Source of the DNA: Sorex araneus
Lineage: Eukaryota > Chordata > Mammalia > Eulipotyphla > Soricidae
Assembly (NCBI RefSeq): GCF_027595985.1
Contig: NC_073306.1
Span: 99,083,426 to 99,147,425, forward strand
DNA: 64,000 bases
Direction of reading: 5' to 3'
The translations under genes were made by a program, and so were the position numbers. Numbering within the stretch: position 1 is the first letter of the stretch; the number at the start of each line of letters is the position of its first letter. Below the pieces are notes generated by a model, which had not been told where the DNA came from, searched no databases, and was given only the letters and a program-made list of their open reading frames with translations. Below, piece after piece: positions 3,852-60,217 of this stretch.

Positions 3852-4460
3852 GCGCAGGGCCGCAGACAGCCCGGCTCCCGGTGGCCTGGCCCTGCGGCCG
3901 GGACTGCCGCCCGCGTTGGCCGGATTGGCCCGTCAACGCCCCGCGAGCCCCGTCCCGTCCCCAGTTTCCTGGAAGACGGTCCCCGAGGAGCCGCTGGCCG
4001 CGCAGGGTCAGTCTGTTCCTTTCTTTGGTCAAACGGGTCACGCGAGGTTTTGGAACCCGAAGGCCCCGGCGCGCGGGAGCGGACACCAGGGTTGGCAGCG
4101 GAGTCCTCGGGCTGCGTGCTCCGGGCGGCTCCGCTGCCGCGTCCCCTGTTTGTTCCAGTAGCTCAGTCAAGCAGGCTCGTCCTGCCAAGCCTCAGGTACT
4201 GTTTTCAGTCAACGATACCACCTGCCGGTTTATTAGCCGCATTTCTTGGTAACTTTCTAACCGTTATAAACTATGTTCTTTTCCCGCTAGTAAATGAGCC
4301 GCCTACTTATTTTAATGACTGCTGTGGGATGTGAGCTCTTTACATCGAGATTTATGAAATCTTCCTCCTACCGGGAGTTCAGATGAAACCTCCCAACCCC
4401 ACCCCTGTTCAGTTTACTTATAGCATCTGTCTCCTTGAAGATTTTTTTTTTTTCTGATGA

Positions 4461-5185: not shown

Positions 5186-5403
5186 TAAAAAATGTGGTGG
5201 TGAAAAAAAGTATTTAGGTCTCATGTGAAGTCTGATGAGGCACATTTCTTACTCCTTGGTATACTAAATTGTTGCAAGTAATAGAAATACTGTGTGGTGG
5301 AAGTAATGTTTGTGTCTGCATATAAAATGATCTTATTTGCCTGTAACTTATTAAAATTATGAGAACAAATATCAATATTTTACATTTTCAATTTCCTTAA
5401 CAG

Positions 5404-5445
5404 GAACTTCAGCATGAAAATATCGTAGCACTCTATGACGTTCAG
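5404..5445 (+). CDS. ULK2: ULK2 exon 3 (codons 62-75)
   Basis: A 42-nt micro-exon encoding ELQHENIVALYDVQ (beta-4 region). The acceptor is TTCCTTAACAG. The donor GTACCT is weak at positions +4 to +6, and it opens the 19.9-kb intron 3, the largest complete intron here. Confidence 0.96.
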
Positions 5446-5604
5446 GTACCTCACATTGAGTTAAAAAAATTGTGCATGTTTATTAATAAAGAACTTATTT
5501 TTCTTGTTTTGTACAAATTTAAGTGAGTCTGATAGAAGTAGAAAATTACCTTTTGAAAAGTTATGTTCCTTGAATAATATGTTTAAAATAGCATAGTACA
5601 GTAG

Positions 5605-5847
5605 CACTGCATTGTAGCACTGTTCTCGTTCGTCGATTTGCTCGAGTGGGCACCAGTAACGTCTCCATAGTGAGACTTGTTACTGTTTCTGGCATATCGA
5701 ATATGTCACAGGTAGCTTTTGGGGCTCTCCTGTGTGGGCAGGATACTCTGGGTAGCTTGCCGGGCTCTCCAGGAGAGATGGAGGAATCGAACCTGGGTCG
5801 GCCGCCTGCAAGGCAAACACCCTTCCTGCTGTGCTATTGCTCCAGTC
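5605..5847 (-). mobile_element. RTE-tailed SINE with SOR head
   Basis: On the minus strand it starts GGACTGGAGCAATAGCACAG, passes the tRNA B box, then switches to a CTCTCCTGGAGAGCCCGGC body and ends in the GAGCAAATCGACGAACGAG tail, not poly(A). Flanked by CATAGTACAGTAG (5592-5604) and CATAGTGCAGTAG (5848-5860), a 12/13 target-site duplication. Confidence 0.88.
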
Positions 5848-5994
5848 CATAGTGCAGTAGGGTAAAACAAAATGTATAGTTTGAGTAAACTTGTTAACTA
5901 TAAGGTACATTGCAATAATATAGTTTTAGATCTAGTTTTAGGAACATTTTTTAAAATTGTAAGAATTTTTGTCATGGATTTATTTACTTTTAAT

Positions 5995-6230: not shown

Positions 6231-6278
6231 GATATGTAAAGGATACGTATTGTGCAGTATTTAAAAATTAGCTTTTCT

Positions 6279-6448
6279 GGGGCTGGAGCAATAGCACAGC
6301 GGGTAGGGCATTTGCCTTGCATGCTGCAGACCTGGGTTCGATTCCCAGCATCCTATATGGTCCCCTGAGCACCGCCAGGAGTAATTCCTGAATGCATGAG
6401 TCAGGAATAACCCCTGTGCATCGCCAGGTGTGACCCAAAAAGAAAAAG
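6279..6448 (+). mobile_element. SOR SINE, full length
   Basis: Complete head, B box GGTTCGATTCC, body and CCAAAAAGAAAAAG tail. Perfect 15-bp target-site duplication AAAATTAGCTTTTCT at 6264-6278 and 6449-6463. Confidence 0.95.
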
Positions 6449-6615
6449 AAAATTAGCTTTTCTTATTTGTTGATTGTAGAGATACTAGAAAGTAAAACTA
6501 ATTAAAATGAAGAAATGGTATATTTATCACTGATATGTATGTGGTATACCTTAGCATACAGTAGAGCTATATATTTTGTTGGTGGATAGACTGGATTCTG
6601 AGTTATTTTCTTTGT

Positions 6616-6942: not shown

Positions 6943-7125
6943 GGGGCTGGAGCGATAGCACAGCGGGTAGGGCGTTTGCCCTGCACGCGCGGCCGACCCG
7001 GGTTCGATTCCCAGCATCCCATATGGTTACCTGAGCACTGCCAGGGGTAGTTCCTGAGTGCAAAACCAGGAGCAACTCCTGAGCATCACTGGGTGTGACC
7101 CAAAAAGAAAAAAAAAACAACAAGA
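6943..7125 (+). mobile_element. SOR SINE, full length
   Basis: Near-consensus head and B box, tail of A-runs with CAACAAG. Flanks CTGCTTCAAAT and ATGCTTCAAAT are the duplication. Confidence 0.92.
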
Positions 7126-8162: not shown

Positions 8163-8419
8163 TAAGTAGCACTGCACTGTTGCACTGTTGTCCCATTGTT
8201 CATCAATTTATTCGAGCAGGCACCAGTAACGTCTTTGTTGTGAGACTTGTTGTTACTATTTTCGGCATATCGAATATGCCACAGGTGGTTTGCCAGGCTC
8301 TGCCGTGTAGGCGGGATACTCTCGGTAGCTTGCCAGGCTCTCCGAGGGACGAAGGAATTGAACCCAGGTTGGCTGCATGCAAAGCAAACGCCCTACCCAC
8401 TGTGCTATCGCTCCAGTCC
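8163..8419 (-). mobile_element. RTE-tailed SINE with SOR head
   Basis: Read on the minus strand: SOR head and B box, the GGAGAGCCTGGCAAGCTACC body, a repeat of the CAAGCTACC motif, then an RTE-like tail ending in ACAGTGCAACAGTGCAGTGC, a short degenerate repeat and not poly(A). Confidence 0.88.
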
Positions 8420-8720: not shown

Positions 8721-9045
8721 GTTGATTGTCGATTTTCTTGAGTGGTCTCAGTAATGTTTCCATTCATCCTAGCCCTGAGATTTTAGCAGTCTCTCTTCAC
8801 TCGCTCTTCCCAATGGTGCCGCATTGGAGGCTCTTTCAGGGTCAGGGGAATGAAACCCATCATTGTTACTGGTTTTGGCATATGAATACGCCATGGAAAG
8901 CTTGCCAGGCTCTCTCATGCAGGCAGGAAACTCTTGGTAGCTTGCTATGCTCTCTGAGAGGGAGAACTAGGCAATAAGATGTCTTGAGGCCGCAAAGTGG
9001 CCACGTGCTTCCGGGAACTTGGTTTTATAGTCTCCGGATGTTGGC
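8721..9045 (-). mobile_element. RTE-tailed element with a different, non-SOR head
   Basis: Shares the GCTTGCCAGGCTCTC and AGGCTCTTTCAGGGTCAGGG blocks and a tail close to CGATTTTCTTGAGTGG with the RTE-tailed SINEs. It lacks the tRNA head and has a CTTGAGGCCGCAAAGTGGCC stretch instead. A relative of the copy at 54268-54462. Confidence 0.65.
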
Positions 9046-31290: not shown

Positions 31291-31468
31291 TTTTTTTTTT
31301 TTTTGCTTTTTGGGTCACACCTGGCAATGCACAGGGGTTACTCTTGGCTCTGCACTCAGGAATCTCCCCTGGCGGTGCTCAGAGGACCATATGGGATGCT
31401 GGGAATCGAACCCGGGTCGGCCGCGTGCAAGGCAAACGCCCTACCCGCTGTGCTATCACTCCAGCCCC
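31291..31468 (-). mobile_element. SOR SINE, young
   Basis: T-run, full-length and near-consensus, head ending ATCACTCCAGCCCC. Perfect 13-bp duplication AACCCAATGTCAT at 31278-31290 and 31469-31481. Confidence 0.96.
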
Positions 31469-32868: not shown

Positions 32869-33111
32869 GCACTCTAGCAGTGTCATCCCATTGTTCATCG
32901 ATTTGCTTGAGCGGGCACCACTAATGTCTCCATTGTGAGACTTGTTACTGTTTTTGACATATTGAATATACCATGGGTAGCTTTCCAGGCTTTGCCGTGT
33001 GGGAGGGATACTCTCGGTAGCTTGCCAGGCTCTCCGAGAGGGATGGAGGAATTGAACCCGGATTGGCAGCGTGCAAGGCCAACGCCCTACCCTATGTTCT
33101 ATCGTCCAGTC
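32869..33111 (-). mobile_element. RTE-tailed SINE with SOR head, near exon 6
   Basis: Complement of SOR head, the paired CAAGCTACC-type body and the RTE-like tail. Perfect 14-bp duplication TGTTGATAACAGTA at 32855-32868 and 33112-33125. It ends 69 bp before exon 6. Confidence 0.95.
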
Positions 33112-40391: not shown

Positions 40392-40626
40392 TGTATCACT
40401 GTCATCCTGTTGCTCATAGATTTGCTCGAGCGGGCACCAGTAACGTCTCCATTGTGAGACTTGTTACTGTTTTTGGCATATGAATACGCCACGGGTAGCT
40501 TGCCAGGCTCTGCCATGCGGGCGGGATACTCTTGGTAGCTTGCTGGGCTCTCCAAGAGTGACGGAGGAATCGAACCCGGGTTGGCCACGTGCAAGGCAAA
40601 CGCCCTACCAGCTGTGCTATATGCAA
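40392..40626 (-). mobile_element. RTE-tailed SINE, 5'-truncated
   Basis: Tail and body complete; the head stops at GCTGTGCTATATGC, so the first about 12 bp of the tRNA-like part are absent. Perfect duplication ATAATGTTTTAGGGC at 40377-40391 and 40627-40641. Confidence 0.95.
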
Positions 40627-41390: not shown

Positions 41391-41454
41391 TAGCCCCTCT
41401 TTGTGGTTTATTTTATTTTATTTATTTCTTAATGTATTGGGGGCTCTTTTGGTG

Positions 41455-41600
41455 ACAGGTGAATGAGGCCAATTGTTGTTACTGTTGTTGGCATATCGAA
41501 TACTCGACGGGTAGCTTGCCAGGCTCTCCAAGAGGGACGGAGGCTTTTAGGGCGGCCTCCAATCGCCCTTAGACGTGTTACCATGGTTCACACTAAATTT
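41455..41600 (-). mobile_element. Body piece of RTE-tailed element, alternative head
   Basis: TTGGCATATCGAATACTCGA, GGGTAGCTTGCCAGGCTCTC and AGGGCGGCCTCCAATCGCCC. The last block is also next to the same body at 59086-59130, marking a head that is not the tRNA one. Confidence 0.65.
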
Positions 41601-41965
41601 GAACCCTATCAAATATGGTATGGGAATAATAGGTATTAAGTGTTTTATGGTGTGTCGCACGGCCTCGAGAGGTCCAGAGAGCAACCTGAAGGGTGGCGGT
41701 GTCTGGGTAGTGGATGTAGTGGGGGTGGGCCAGTGAGGTATTTATCTTGGGTAGGGTGGGGCGTCTGGGTTGGACCCCTCCCTCAGATGCCGGGGATTGG
41801 AGGAGGCAGACAGAGGATCTTGTTTCCAGGTCTCTTTGAACCTAGAGCTAAGGTCGAAAAGTTCTGCTTACCTGGCTTTGCCGGGCTTCACTCATGCGTG
41901 AGGTTCAGCCCAAGTGTCCGGAGAGCAAACTGGAGGGTGGCGATGTCTGGGTAGTGGACACTGGG
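41601..41965. other. Unassigned GC-rich segment with a direct repeat
   Basis: GGGTGGCGGTGTCTGGGTAG at about 41690 returns as GGGTGGCGATGTCTGGGTAG at about 41935, each preceded by GAGAGCAA. It may be part of the RTE element's 5' flank or a separate unit. Confidence 0.4.
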
Positions 41966-42712
41966 TCGTATTGCAGCTGAATCTCAACAAGACGATGTTC
42001 ATGAAAAACGAACTGGTCCCTGAAGCTCCATTTGCTCTCAATGGAACGAACATCTCCGAATGCAGCAGCTATGTGTACCTGGGTCGAGAAATCAACATGA
42101 AGAATGACTTGGTGCCAGAACTGTGCAGGAGGAAGAGAACAGCGTGGAACACATTCAAGAACGTCGAAGAGGTGGTTAAGAGAACGAAGAACCTCCGACT
42201 CCAGGCACATCTTTTTGATTCCACCGTTCTTCCTGCACTAACATATGCCTCAGAGACCTGGGCCCTCTGCATACAGGATGAGAATGCTATTAGGGTGTCC
42301 CAAAGAGGAATTGAAAGAGCTATGCTGGGAATATCATGTCTCACTTAAGTGAGAGAAGGAATCCGGAGTTCTGACCTTCGTCGACGGTCAAAAATCAGGG
42401 ATGCTGTCCCGTTTGCCAAAGCATCAAAGATCAGATGGGCTGGTCATGTAATGCGATTCAGAGACGACCGTTGGACTAGAGCTGTTACAGACTGGATTCC
42501 ACGGGATGTCAGAAGACCTCGTGGCCGCCCTCCAGCTAGATGGTCAGATTTCTTCGTCAAATCTCTGAATGAATGATTTGAGGCTCTTTCTGTTCCTGGA
42601 GCGAGCAGGTATCATTGGGCTATACTAGCTCGAGACAGGGACAAATGGAGATGTTACTGGCGCCCACTCGAGCAAATCGAAGATCAATAGGACTACAAGT
42701 GATACAAGTGAT
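41966..42712 (+). mobile_element. RTE-clade LINE, 3' part of the RT ORF and tail
   Basis: Encodes the C-terminal part of an RTE-type reverse transcriptase: YVYLGREI, LPALTYASETWAL, QRGIERAMLG, KIRWAGHVMRFRDDRW, RGRPPARWSDFF, ending RDRDKWRCYWRPLEQIEDQ. One frame runs throughout with two stops (TAA 42346, TGA 42574) and no frameshift. The element is 5'-truncated and lacks the endonuclease. Its last about 90 bp are the tail found on the RTE-tailed SINEs. The 3' end is an ACAAGTGATACAAGTGATTT-like short repeat, not poly(A). Confidence 0.9.
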
Positions 42713-54267: not shown

Positions 54268-54462
54268 TATCACTGTATCACTATCATCTTGTTGTTTGTC
54301 GATTTACTCGAGCGGGCACCAGTAACGTCTCTGTTACACTCAGCCCTGAGATTATTATAGCAGCCTCTCCTTACTCGTCTTTCCTAATGATTGGAGGCTC
54401 TTTCAGGGTCAGGGGAATGAGACCTATCGTTACTGTTTTTCGCATATTGAATACATTTTACA
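54268..54462 (-). mobile_element. RTE-tailed element, variant body, truncated
   Basis: TTTACTCGAGCGGGCACCAG tail, then CAGCCCTGAGATTATTATAG and GGAGGCTCTTTCAGGGTCAG. The same variant body is in 8721-9045; no head. Confidence 0.8.
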
Positions 54463-54847: not shown

Positions 54848-55098
54848 GGACTGGAGCGATAGCACAGCAGGTAGGGTGTTTGCCTTGCACGCAGCTGACC
54901 CGGGTTCAATTCCTCCATCCCTCTTGGAGAGCCCGGCAAGCTACCGAGGGTATCCTGCTCGCATGGCAGACAGAGCCTGGCAAGCTACCTGTGGTGTATT
55001 GGATATGCCAAAAACAGTTAGAACAAGTCTCACAATGGAGACGTTACTGGTGCCCATTCAAGCAAATCGATGAACAATGGGACGACAGTGCTGCTATA
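54848..55098 (+). mobile_element. RTE-tailed SINE with SOR head, + strand reference copy
   Basis: Head GGACTGGAGCGATAGCACAG and B box GGGTTCAATTCC as in SOR. After the B box it changes to CATCCCTCTTGGAGAGCCCG, contains two CTGGCAAGCTACC-like words, then ATGGAGACGTTACTGGTGCC and GCAAATCGATGAACAATGGG, the RTE-type tail. No poly(A). Confidence 0.93.
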
Positions 55099-58782: not shown

Positions 58783-58986
58783 ATAGAGCTGTGGCAGCGG
58801 TGCCAGCAGTGGCTCATCCACTGTGGGGTGCTGTCAGCCAACCACCAGATGACCTGGCACTTGGCGCAGGTGTTCGACCTGACAAAGACCCTCCTCGATA
58901 GGGTCCTGCTCTGCCAGCTGCTCAACAATCTCCGGGCGCACTCCATCAACCTCAAGGAGATCAACCTAAGGCTGCAGATTTCCCAG
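58783..58986 (+). pseudogene. VAV3: Copy of VAV3 exon 1 (calponin-homology domain N-terminus)
   Basis: 204 nt in one open frame encode 68 residues ending in QLLNNLRAHSINLKEINLR and then LQISQ. This is closest to the VAV3 N-terminal CH domain; VAV1 and VAV2 differ in the NNLRAHSINLKEINLR stretch as I recall. The start codon is ATA instead of ATG. The match ends exactly where exon 1 of VAV genes ends, followed by GTGCTG, so exon 2 is absent and this is not a spliced mRNA copy. Several substitutions, no frameshift. VAV3 is a Rho/Rac exchange factor; this fragment cannot encode it. Confidence 0.85.
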
Positions 58987-59040: not shown

Positions 59041-59345
59041 AATGCCAGTCGACCAAAAGCTACGTTGGGTAAACTGGGAACGCCTGTAAAGGTGATTAGA
59101 GGCCGCCCCAAAAGCCTCTGTCCCTCTGGAGAGCCCGGCAAGCTGCTGCTTGGCAGAGCCTGGCAAGCCATCTGTGGCGTACTCGATACTATGGCCAAAA
59201 ACAGTAACAACGACTTTCCCCTGACCCTGAAAGAACCCCCAGTATGCCATTGGGCTACACTAGTACGAGACAGGGACAGGTGGAGACGTTACTGGCGCCC
59301 GCTCGAACATATCAATGAACAATGGGATGACAATGATACAGTTAT
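59041..59345 (+). mobile_element. RTE-tailed element with alternative head
   Basis: GATTAGAGGCCGCCCCAAAA head side (compare 41540-41570), GGAGAGCCCGGCAAGCTGC body, CCCCTGACCCTGAAAGAACC, then CATTGGGCTACACTAGTACG and GGAGACGTTACTGGCGCCCG. The last two blocks are nearly identical to the RTE LINE at 42613-42680. Confidence 0.85.
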
Positions 59346-59561: not shown

Positions 59562-59745
59562 TCGGGGCTGGAGTGATAGCACAACAGGTAGGGCGTAACC
59601 CAGCGATGCTCAGAGGTTACTCCTGGCTTTGCACTCAGGAATTACTCCTGACAGTGCTTGGGGGACCATATGGGATGCTGGGGATCGAACCCAGGTCGGC
59701 TGTGTACAAGGCAAACACCCTACCTGCTGTGCTATCGCTCCAGCC
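59562..59745 (-). mobile_element. SOR SINE with inverted fold-back head
   Basis: 59562-59593 is a + strand head (GGGGCTGGAGTGATAGCACA and ACAGGTAGGGCG). It is joined directly to a minus-strand SINE running 59594-59745 that ends in the complementary CTATCGCTCCAGCCCC. The two heads form an inverted repeat of about 32 bp. Confidence 0.9.
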
Positions 59746-60033: not shown

Positions 60034-60217
60034 TTATTTTATTTTATTTTTTTGGTTTTTGGGTTACACCCGGTGATGCACAGGGGTTACTCCTGGCTCT
60101 TCACTCAGGAATCACCCCTGGTGGTGCTCAGGGGACCATATGGGACGCTGGGATTAGAACCCGGGTCGGCCGCGTGCAAGGCAAACGCCCTACCCGCTGT
60201 GCTATCGCTCCAGCCCC
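60034..60217 (-). mobile_element. SOR SINE, young
   Basis: T-rich end, TTTGGGTTACACCCGGTGAT, full near-consensus body and head ending TATCGCTCCAGCCCC. GAGGTTTTATTTTTTTA is found on both flanks. Confidence 0.95.

Follow-up and report, generated by a model that had tools for sequence, protein, structure and literature searches.

The stretch analysed here (the window, 64,000 nucleotides of the genome of the shrew Sorex araneus) carries two kinds of tRNA-type SINE that begin alike and end differently, and the question it raises is whether a single promoter head has come to serve SINEs of two unrelated LINEs in one genome, as a sequence-only reading of this DNA had proposed. The SINE copies on which the question turns, and the parts of the complete plus-strand copy, are the following.

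54848 to 55098, plus strand: complete RTE-tailed SINE (nhmmer match 54849-55094, model positions 2-240, 280.5 bits)
54848 to 54913, plus strand: its SOR-type tRNA-derived head with A box and B box (84.8% over 66 bp against the SOR copy at 6280)
54912 to 55026, plus strand: its RTE LINE 5′ UTR piece (81.7% over 115 bp against the 5′ UTR of LINE copy L038)
55034 to 55087, plus strand: its RTE LINE 3′ end, comprising the last codons and the start of the short 3′ UTR (85.2% over 54 bp against the window LINE)
5614 to 5848, minus strand: RTE-tailed SINE (nhmmer model positions 1-240, 247.4 bits)
8180 to 8419, minus strand: RTE-tailed SINE (nhmmer model positions 1-239, 255.4 bits)
32875 to 33110, minus strand: RTE-tailed SINE (profile match; perfect 14-bp TSD TACTGTTATCAACA)
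40393 to 40620, minus strand: RTE-tailed SINE, head 5′-truncated by 11 model positions (perfect 15-bp TSD GCCCTAAAACATTAT)
6278 to 6450, plus strand: full SOR SINE with A-rich tail (TSD AAAATTAGCTTTTCT after TATTTA)

BLAST and profile searches recovered all five RTE-tailed SINEs at the places named earlier, four on the minus strand and one on the plus strand, and the SOR SINE that had been put at 6279-6448 proved to be a full copy at 6278-6450. By eye, the copy at 5614-5848 has 13-bp flanking repeats that differ at one base and fall below the TSD cut used, and no TSD was found around the copy at 8180-8419. The window is full of SOR SINEs; two primer strings from the excerpted text of a paper with a shrew SINE assay (PMC8608897), the second reverse-complemented and trimmed, match it exactly four and seven times. 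ARAGORN called five tRNAs in the window (6948-7022, 8344-8415, 31391-31463, 59670-59742 and 60140-60212), but all of them fall on SINE heads, four SOR and one RTE-tailed, and they are therefore not likely to be tRNA genes.

It is highly probable that the RTE-tailed SINE is one family with two parents, an SOR head having been combined with both ends of an RTE LINE. Because its middle and its tail both match that LINE, the element can be read as an SOR head followed by a LINE 5′ UTR piece and a LINE 3′ end. Over its first 66 positions its consensus agrees with that of SOR at 62 without a gap, a likeness far above chance; for positions 65-172 the counterpart is the 5′ UTR of LINE copy L029 (96 of 108 identical), and for positions 180-233 it is the 3′ end of that copy (51 of 54). 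The CC at positions 65-66 fits SOR and the LINE 5′ UTR alike and forms the overlap at the first junction, and GTCTCAC (positions 173-179) is a 7-nt filler between the 5′ UTR piece and the 3′ end. Similarity to SOR ends directly after the B box. The A and B boxes of the RTE-tailed consensus, TAGCACAGCGGG and GGTTCGATTCC, are motifs that we take to be pol III boxes. Past position 66 the two consensus sequences agree at only 26 of 94 positions, about the level of unrelated DNA. The description of a head common to both groups up to the B box and of divergence beyond it thus stands, and the heads are not distant relatives, but that description had missed that the middle of the SINE is LINE 5′ UTR. 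We had also treated the middle segment as a possible novel body, a candidate that was dropped, the same segment being carried by L029 as LINE 5′ UTR.

At the 3′ end, neither the SOR body (26 of 94, as above) nor its A-rich terminus is present in the RTE-tailed SINE. Where a TSD fixes the 3′ end, AAAA is the terminus of 22 of 45 SOR copies but of 0 of 15 RTE-tailed copies; the latter carry short repeats without poly(A), such as CAGTGACAGTG and TGCTACAGTGC, and this agrees with the earlier distinction between an A-rich group and a group lacking poly(A). A LINE tail is indeed shared, but over a shorter and less similar stretch than the 75-90 nearly identical base pairs first described: the five window copies match the window LINE over 39-63 bp at 78-92%. 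Since the SINE tail takes in the C-terminal end of the LINE coding sequence (..DKWRRYWCPLKQIDEQ.. in L029 and ..DKWRCYWRPLEQIEDQ in the window LINE), the end common to SINE and LINE is partly coding. The bipartite body, 5′ UTR piece and then 3′ end, matches a single LINE copy that has both ends, L029.

The LINE itself is represented in the window by three adjoining features.

41435 to 41664, minus strand: inverted RTE LINE 5′ UTR preceding the 3′ part (80% over 270 bp against the L038 5′ UTR, minus strand)
41672 to 41965, unstranded: tandem repeats, period about 244, belonging to the LINE 5′ region (41672-41714 and 41916-41958 are 90.7% alike)
41966 to 42712, plus strand: RTE LINE 3′ part, from C-terminal RT codons to the 3′ end (92.6-94.1% against eight genome copies)

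Eight LINE copies with their flanks (L029 to L036) were fetched from the genome, most of them 5′-truncated. L029 spans the LINE from the 5′ UTR to the 3′ end near 4340 and carries the SINE middle segment in sense, within 1137-1491, leading directly into the ORF start MIVCTFNARSLASEAS; the sequence directly 3′ of the segment is KTKMIVCTFNARSLASEASIEDLMVQ. Its coding part has stops and frame breaks, with a 449-aa open stretch containing an RT domain (RVT_1, E 2.5e-31), and the endonuclease match in the LINE (Exo_endo_phos, PF03372, E 0.0016) is below the Pfam curated cut-off. A search of the genome contig collection found no relatives of the 449-aa stretch, and a search of viral contigs (two exact patterns, 75-aa LINE piece) found no relatives of the LINE.

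In L038 tandem repeats separate the ORF from an inverted 5′ UTR that precedes it, so that L029 1137-1511 matches its minus strand and L029 1508-2662 its plus strand. The window LINE has a similar arrangement of inverted 5′ UTR, tandem repeats and then the 3′ part. Twin priming yields such a layout, in which an inverted 5′ part stands upstream of a sense part, and the window LINE may accordingly be described, from its arrangement, as twin-priming-like. An initial assignment of 41435-41664 to an unrelated repeat was dropped, L038 showing the same inversion. The tandem repeats of about 244 bp (window 41672-41965) also occur in L029 (about 663-1131), L038 and L043, and their orientation relative to the LINE 5′ UTR differs between L029 on the one hand and L038 and L043 on the other. 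A palindrome, GTGCGGC..GCGGCCGCAC, lies at the border in L038. L043 (1496-2100, LINE orientation) is a LINE copy with an internal deletion, in which the beginning of the 5′ UTR leads directly, in sense, into mid-ORF sequence (L029 position 2513).

We take the LINE to belong to the RTE clade on features typical of that clade. It is probably RTE1_Sar, a name that we derive from host and clade. The excerpted text of PMC6542046 describes RTE1_Sar as an RTE LINE that is abundant in the shrew and also present in nine parasitic nematodes, a distribution read there as horizontal transfer; a word count of that paper gave zero occurrences of 'sine'. RTE1_Sar is thus the presumed source of both parts of the SINE other than the head.

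We scanned the window and, at fixed genome positions, 20 further regions of 10 kb each, of which 19 were usable because L014 (G000:C2:30000001-30010000) consists wholly of N. The scan yielded 23 RTE-tailed copies with head and tail, five of them in the window. The other 18, from 189,845 known bases, lie in 10 of the 20 regions and scale to about 228,000 head-bearing copies in the assembly of 2.41 Gb and 65 contigs (Poisson 135,000-361,000); as the samples are clustered, this estimate is rough. The fixed-position sample also contained 149 SOR pieces and two pieces of the last 750 bp of the LINE, the latter both in one region. Near-full SOR copies number 88 in the 189,845 bases, about one per 2 kb. 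Genome searches returned at least 5,886 candidates for the SINE and at least 9,805 for the LINE, 40 of each being scored; these counts are lower bounds and not comparable between SINE and LINE, since very common words were skipped in the search. For the same reason, the lack of any hit when the genome was queried with the SINE consensus does not speak for rarity. Scans of all loci left out L001, which is the place of the window copy, and L037. RTE-tailed copies were excluded if the model match began after position 14 or ended before 230, and SOR copies if it began after 6 or ended before 155. The 66 RTE-tailed copies so assembled comprise five from the window, 18 from the fixed positions, 7 + 32 best matches to the window copy and four chance finds, so that 39 of the 66 were picked non-randomly, by likeness to the window copy. 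The SOR site set comprised 138 copies, two of 140 having been dropped for incomplete flanks.

We used the insertion sites of these copies to compare the two groups, calling a TSD at a score of at least 9 and pairing 5′ and 3′ flanks from different copies as a control. TSDs were called in 15 of 66 RTE-tailed copies (mismatched pairs 0 of 330) and 45 of 138 SOR copies (mismatched pairs 5 of 690), and the site evidence therefore comes from a minority of copies, a TSD being missing in 51 of 66 and 93 of 138, respectively. In SOR, 30 of the 45 TSDs start with AA, and A has frequencies of 0.78, 0.84, 0.69 and 0.67 at TSD positions +1 to +4, after T; SOR sites thus have the T|AAAA pattern of L1. Only one of the 15 RTE-tailed TSDs starts with AA (Fisher p 5e-5), as expected under the earlier proposal that this group is free of the L1 preference, and a smaller first set, with TSDs in 8 of 34 RTE-tailed copies, gave 0 of 8 versus 31 of 46 for SOR. 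The RTE-tailed sites are marked instead by T at positions −11, −10 and −9, with a frequency of 0.73 at each in the 15 copies versus 0.18-0.22 in SOR. The T window of −13 to −7 was chosen after the first eight sites and the published signature had been viewed. In the seven TSD copies from loci fetched later, T occupies 17 of 21 bases from −11 to −9 (SOR, 28 of 135), a count made after those sites had been viewed.

A run of Ts located roughly 10 nt before the start of the TSD is given, in the excerpted text of PMC13295347, as the signature of Bov-B, of plant RTE LINEs and of their SINEs, and the RTE-tailed sites match it, although the TA step of the published signature is not clear in them. The cut itself separates the two groups poorly, because the base before it is mostly T in both (0.67 in RTE-tailed, 0.60 in SOR) and the commonest first TSD base is A in both (0.47 and 0.78); what distinguishes them is the A run and the distant Ts. 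For the LINE, seven of the eight copies L029 to L036 were searched, and three have clear TSDs, starting with AG (L030), GT (L031) and TT (L035). The search found none in L032 and matches at control level only in L034 and L036, and copy L033 lies in an AT repeat.

From sites and tails together we infer that the RTE-tailed SINE would be mobilised by the RTE enzyme and SOR by L1. The former appears to have changed its mobilising machinery while keeping its promoter. The proposal that one head serves SINEs of two unrelated LINEs is thus supported by the heads and sites of the sampled copies, mobilisation being read from these features. Mammalian SINEs are usually mobilised by L1, and it might be argued that L1 still moves the RTE-tailed SINE as well, the LINE-like tail being a passenger; in both groups the cut mostly follows T and the TSD most often opens with A, which is in keeping with that. 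We regard this explanation as barely credible, given the lack of AAAA at all 15 defined 3′ ends, the single AA start among 15 TSDs and a T stretch about 10 nt upstream like that of RTE-clade elements (PMC13295347, as excerpted). Another possibility is that SOR was not the donor and that one tRNA gene supplied each head on a separate occasion. Both heads are tRNA-like, and ARAGORN reports tRNA-Ala on one RTE-tailed and two SOR heads, but the gap-free agreement of the consensus pair at 62 of 66 positions makes independent capture very unlikely, as do two further observations. With CpG left out, the mean K2P distance from the consensus is 0.071 in RTE-tailed copies (0.017-0.116, n = 23) versus 0.180 in SOR (0.027-0.462, n = 126), and SOR is thus the older and more diverse group, from which the head most likely moved. 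At head site 16, in addition, 20 of 23 RTE-tailed copies have C, and so do 27 of the 30 SOR copies that are youngest, versus 52 C and 67 T among all 126 SOR copies, so that the head looks as if taken from younger SOR stock, on the strength of one site only. SOR is therefore most likely the donor, the direction of the move being deduced from age and diversity.

The most likely origin of the chimera is a template switch on an internally deleted LINE RNA. RTE reverse transcriptase would have started at the 3′ end of an RNA in which the 5′ UTR was joined to the 3′ end, and would have copied the LINE 3′ end and then part of the 5′ UTR. At the CC common to LINE and SOR RNA it may have jumped template, a switch at the RNA level, and the 5′ 66 nt of the SOR RNA would have been copied last, finishing at the SOR 5′ end. 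The product would combine a putative pol III promoter from the SOR boxes, presumably transcribed, with an RTE recognition end, and would then have multiplied to the estimated 228,000 head-bearing copies. Alternatively, the join might have arisen by DNA recombination without any template switch, a SOR copy having inserted beside or inside a headless RTE element and a deletion having followed. SOR is dense, with about one near-full copy per 2 kb, and nested SOR insertions must consequently be common; moreover, a single founder suffices under either route, and the data fit both. This route needs an exact deletion, however, as the join lies at the end of the B box with only the CC as overlap, and we consider it unlikely, if the strongest of the three alternatives. 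We think it reasonably probable that an L1-dependent resident SINE lent its promoter to a LINE derived from a parasitic nematode and that the chimera became far commoner than the LINE; the 20 sampled regions contain 18 head-bearing chimeras versus two LINE pieces, both in one region.

Elements that join the LINE 5′ UTR to the 3′ end without a tRNA head also occur in the window.

8721 to 8985, minus strand: headless RTE derivative, 5′ UTR joined to 3′ end
54291 to 54454, minus strand: fragment of a headless RTE derivative (75.9% against the element at 8721-8985)
59075 to 59345, plus strand: headless RTE derivative with another junction of 5′ UTR and 3′ end (83.0% over 94 bp against the LINE 3′ end)

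The element at 59075-59345 also matches window 41513-41583 at 84.5% over 71 bp. The junctions of these elements, and of others in L009, L017 and L018, differ from that of the SINE. The RTE parent of the SINE is naturally sought among such elements. A diverged headless family in which the ORF is missing was observed in L009 (430-900), L018 (980-1450 and 9500-10000), L017 (2800-3500) and the window (8721-8985), its main alignments being about 72-86% alike, and it is apparently older than the tRNA-headed SINE. Elements with a LINE '5′-end' (RTE or BovB) as head are entered in Table 1 of PMC3747384, as excerpted, for ruminants, opossum and wallaby, and elephant. Those named there, Bov-A2, RTE1-N1_LA, MAR4 and RTESINE1, resemble the shrew headless elements in having such a head.

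The kind of element described here is already known from Ped-2 and the AviRTE SINEs, and the shrew SINE is a further case, which unites the head feature of Ped-2 with the architecture of the AviRTE SINEs; the comparisons that follow rest on excerpts of the cited papers. Ped-2 of the springhare (Gogolevsky et al. 2008; PMC3747384, Table 1) has an ID head and a Bov-B tail. Like the shrew SINE, it places the tRNA-type head of another SINE family on the tail of an RTE-clade LINE, but host, head and LINE differ, Bov-B standing in place of the shrew RTE. The AviRTE SINEs of birds, such as ManaSINE1, have heads of tRNA-Glu, 5S, 28S or GC-rich type, and AviRTE is itself an RTE that birds share with nematodes through horizontal transfer (PMC4844689). 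They share with the shrew SINE a promoter head followed by a bipartite tail, a LINE 5′ UTR part and then 3′ UTR, whereas in the shrew SINE the head is that of a resident A-tailed SINE and the 3′ piece reaches into the ORF. AfroSINE (RTE1), Bov-tA and Bov-A2 (Bov-B) and Sauria SINE (Bov-B) likewise end in an RTE-clade LINE end, in other hosts and with other LINEs (PMC3747384, PMC13295347). SOR has been described from shrews (PMC11240701, PMC7279448) and resembles the RTE-tailed SINE in the head only, having its own body of about 100 bp past the B box, an A-rich tail and, in our data, L1-type sites. No paper among the matches listed by our literature search, which most subscription papers lie outside, describes an RTE-tailed shrew SINE, and a text search of PMC3747384 found neither 'shrew' nor 'Sorex'. 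Given its size, the family could well have an entry in Repbase, Dfam or SINEBase already.

These relationships suggest that a SINE can switch its mobilising LINE while retaining the promoter alone. If the LINE is RTE1_Sar, a horizontally acquired LINE would have been taken over by host sequence. If our reading is correct, a single pol III promoter would serve a pair of unrelated reverse transcriptases within the same germ line, a natural experiment in which the switch could be dated against the horizontal transfer. Since the shrew genome holds a single head with either of two tails, one could measure directly how the tail influences copy number, choice of target and silencing. The reading would also explain seemingly unrelated repeats, the SINE middle and several headless repeats being parts of the 5′ UTR of one LINE.

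Two further observations concern possible coding sequence in the window. Just upstream of the headless RTE element at 59075-59345, window 58786-58983 (plus strand) has an open frame of 66 codons in which Pfam recognises a calponin-homology domain (CAMSAP_CH, 3.5e-9; the CH match, 0.0002, misses its cut-off). We take it to resemble the first exon of a VAV gene, as an exon or a retrocopy. At window 5402-5446 we noted by eye QELQHENIVALYDVQ, which presumably resembles an exon of a ULK-type kinase, and the window may lie in that gene.
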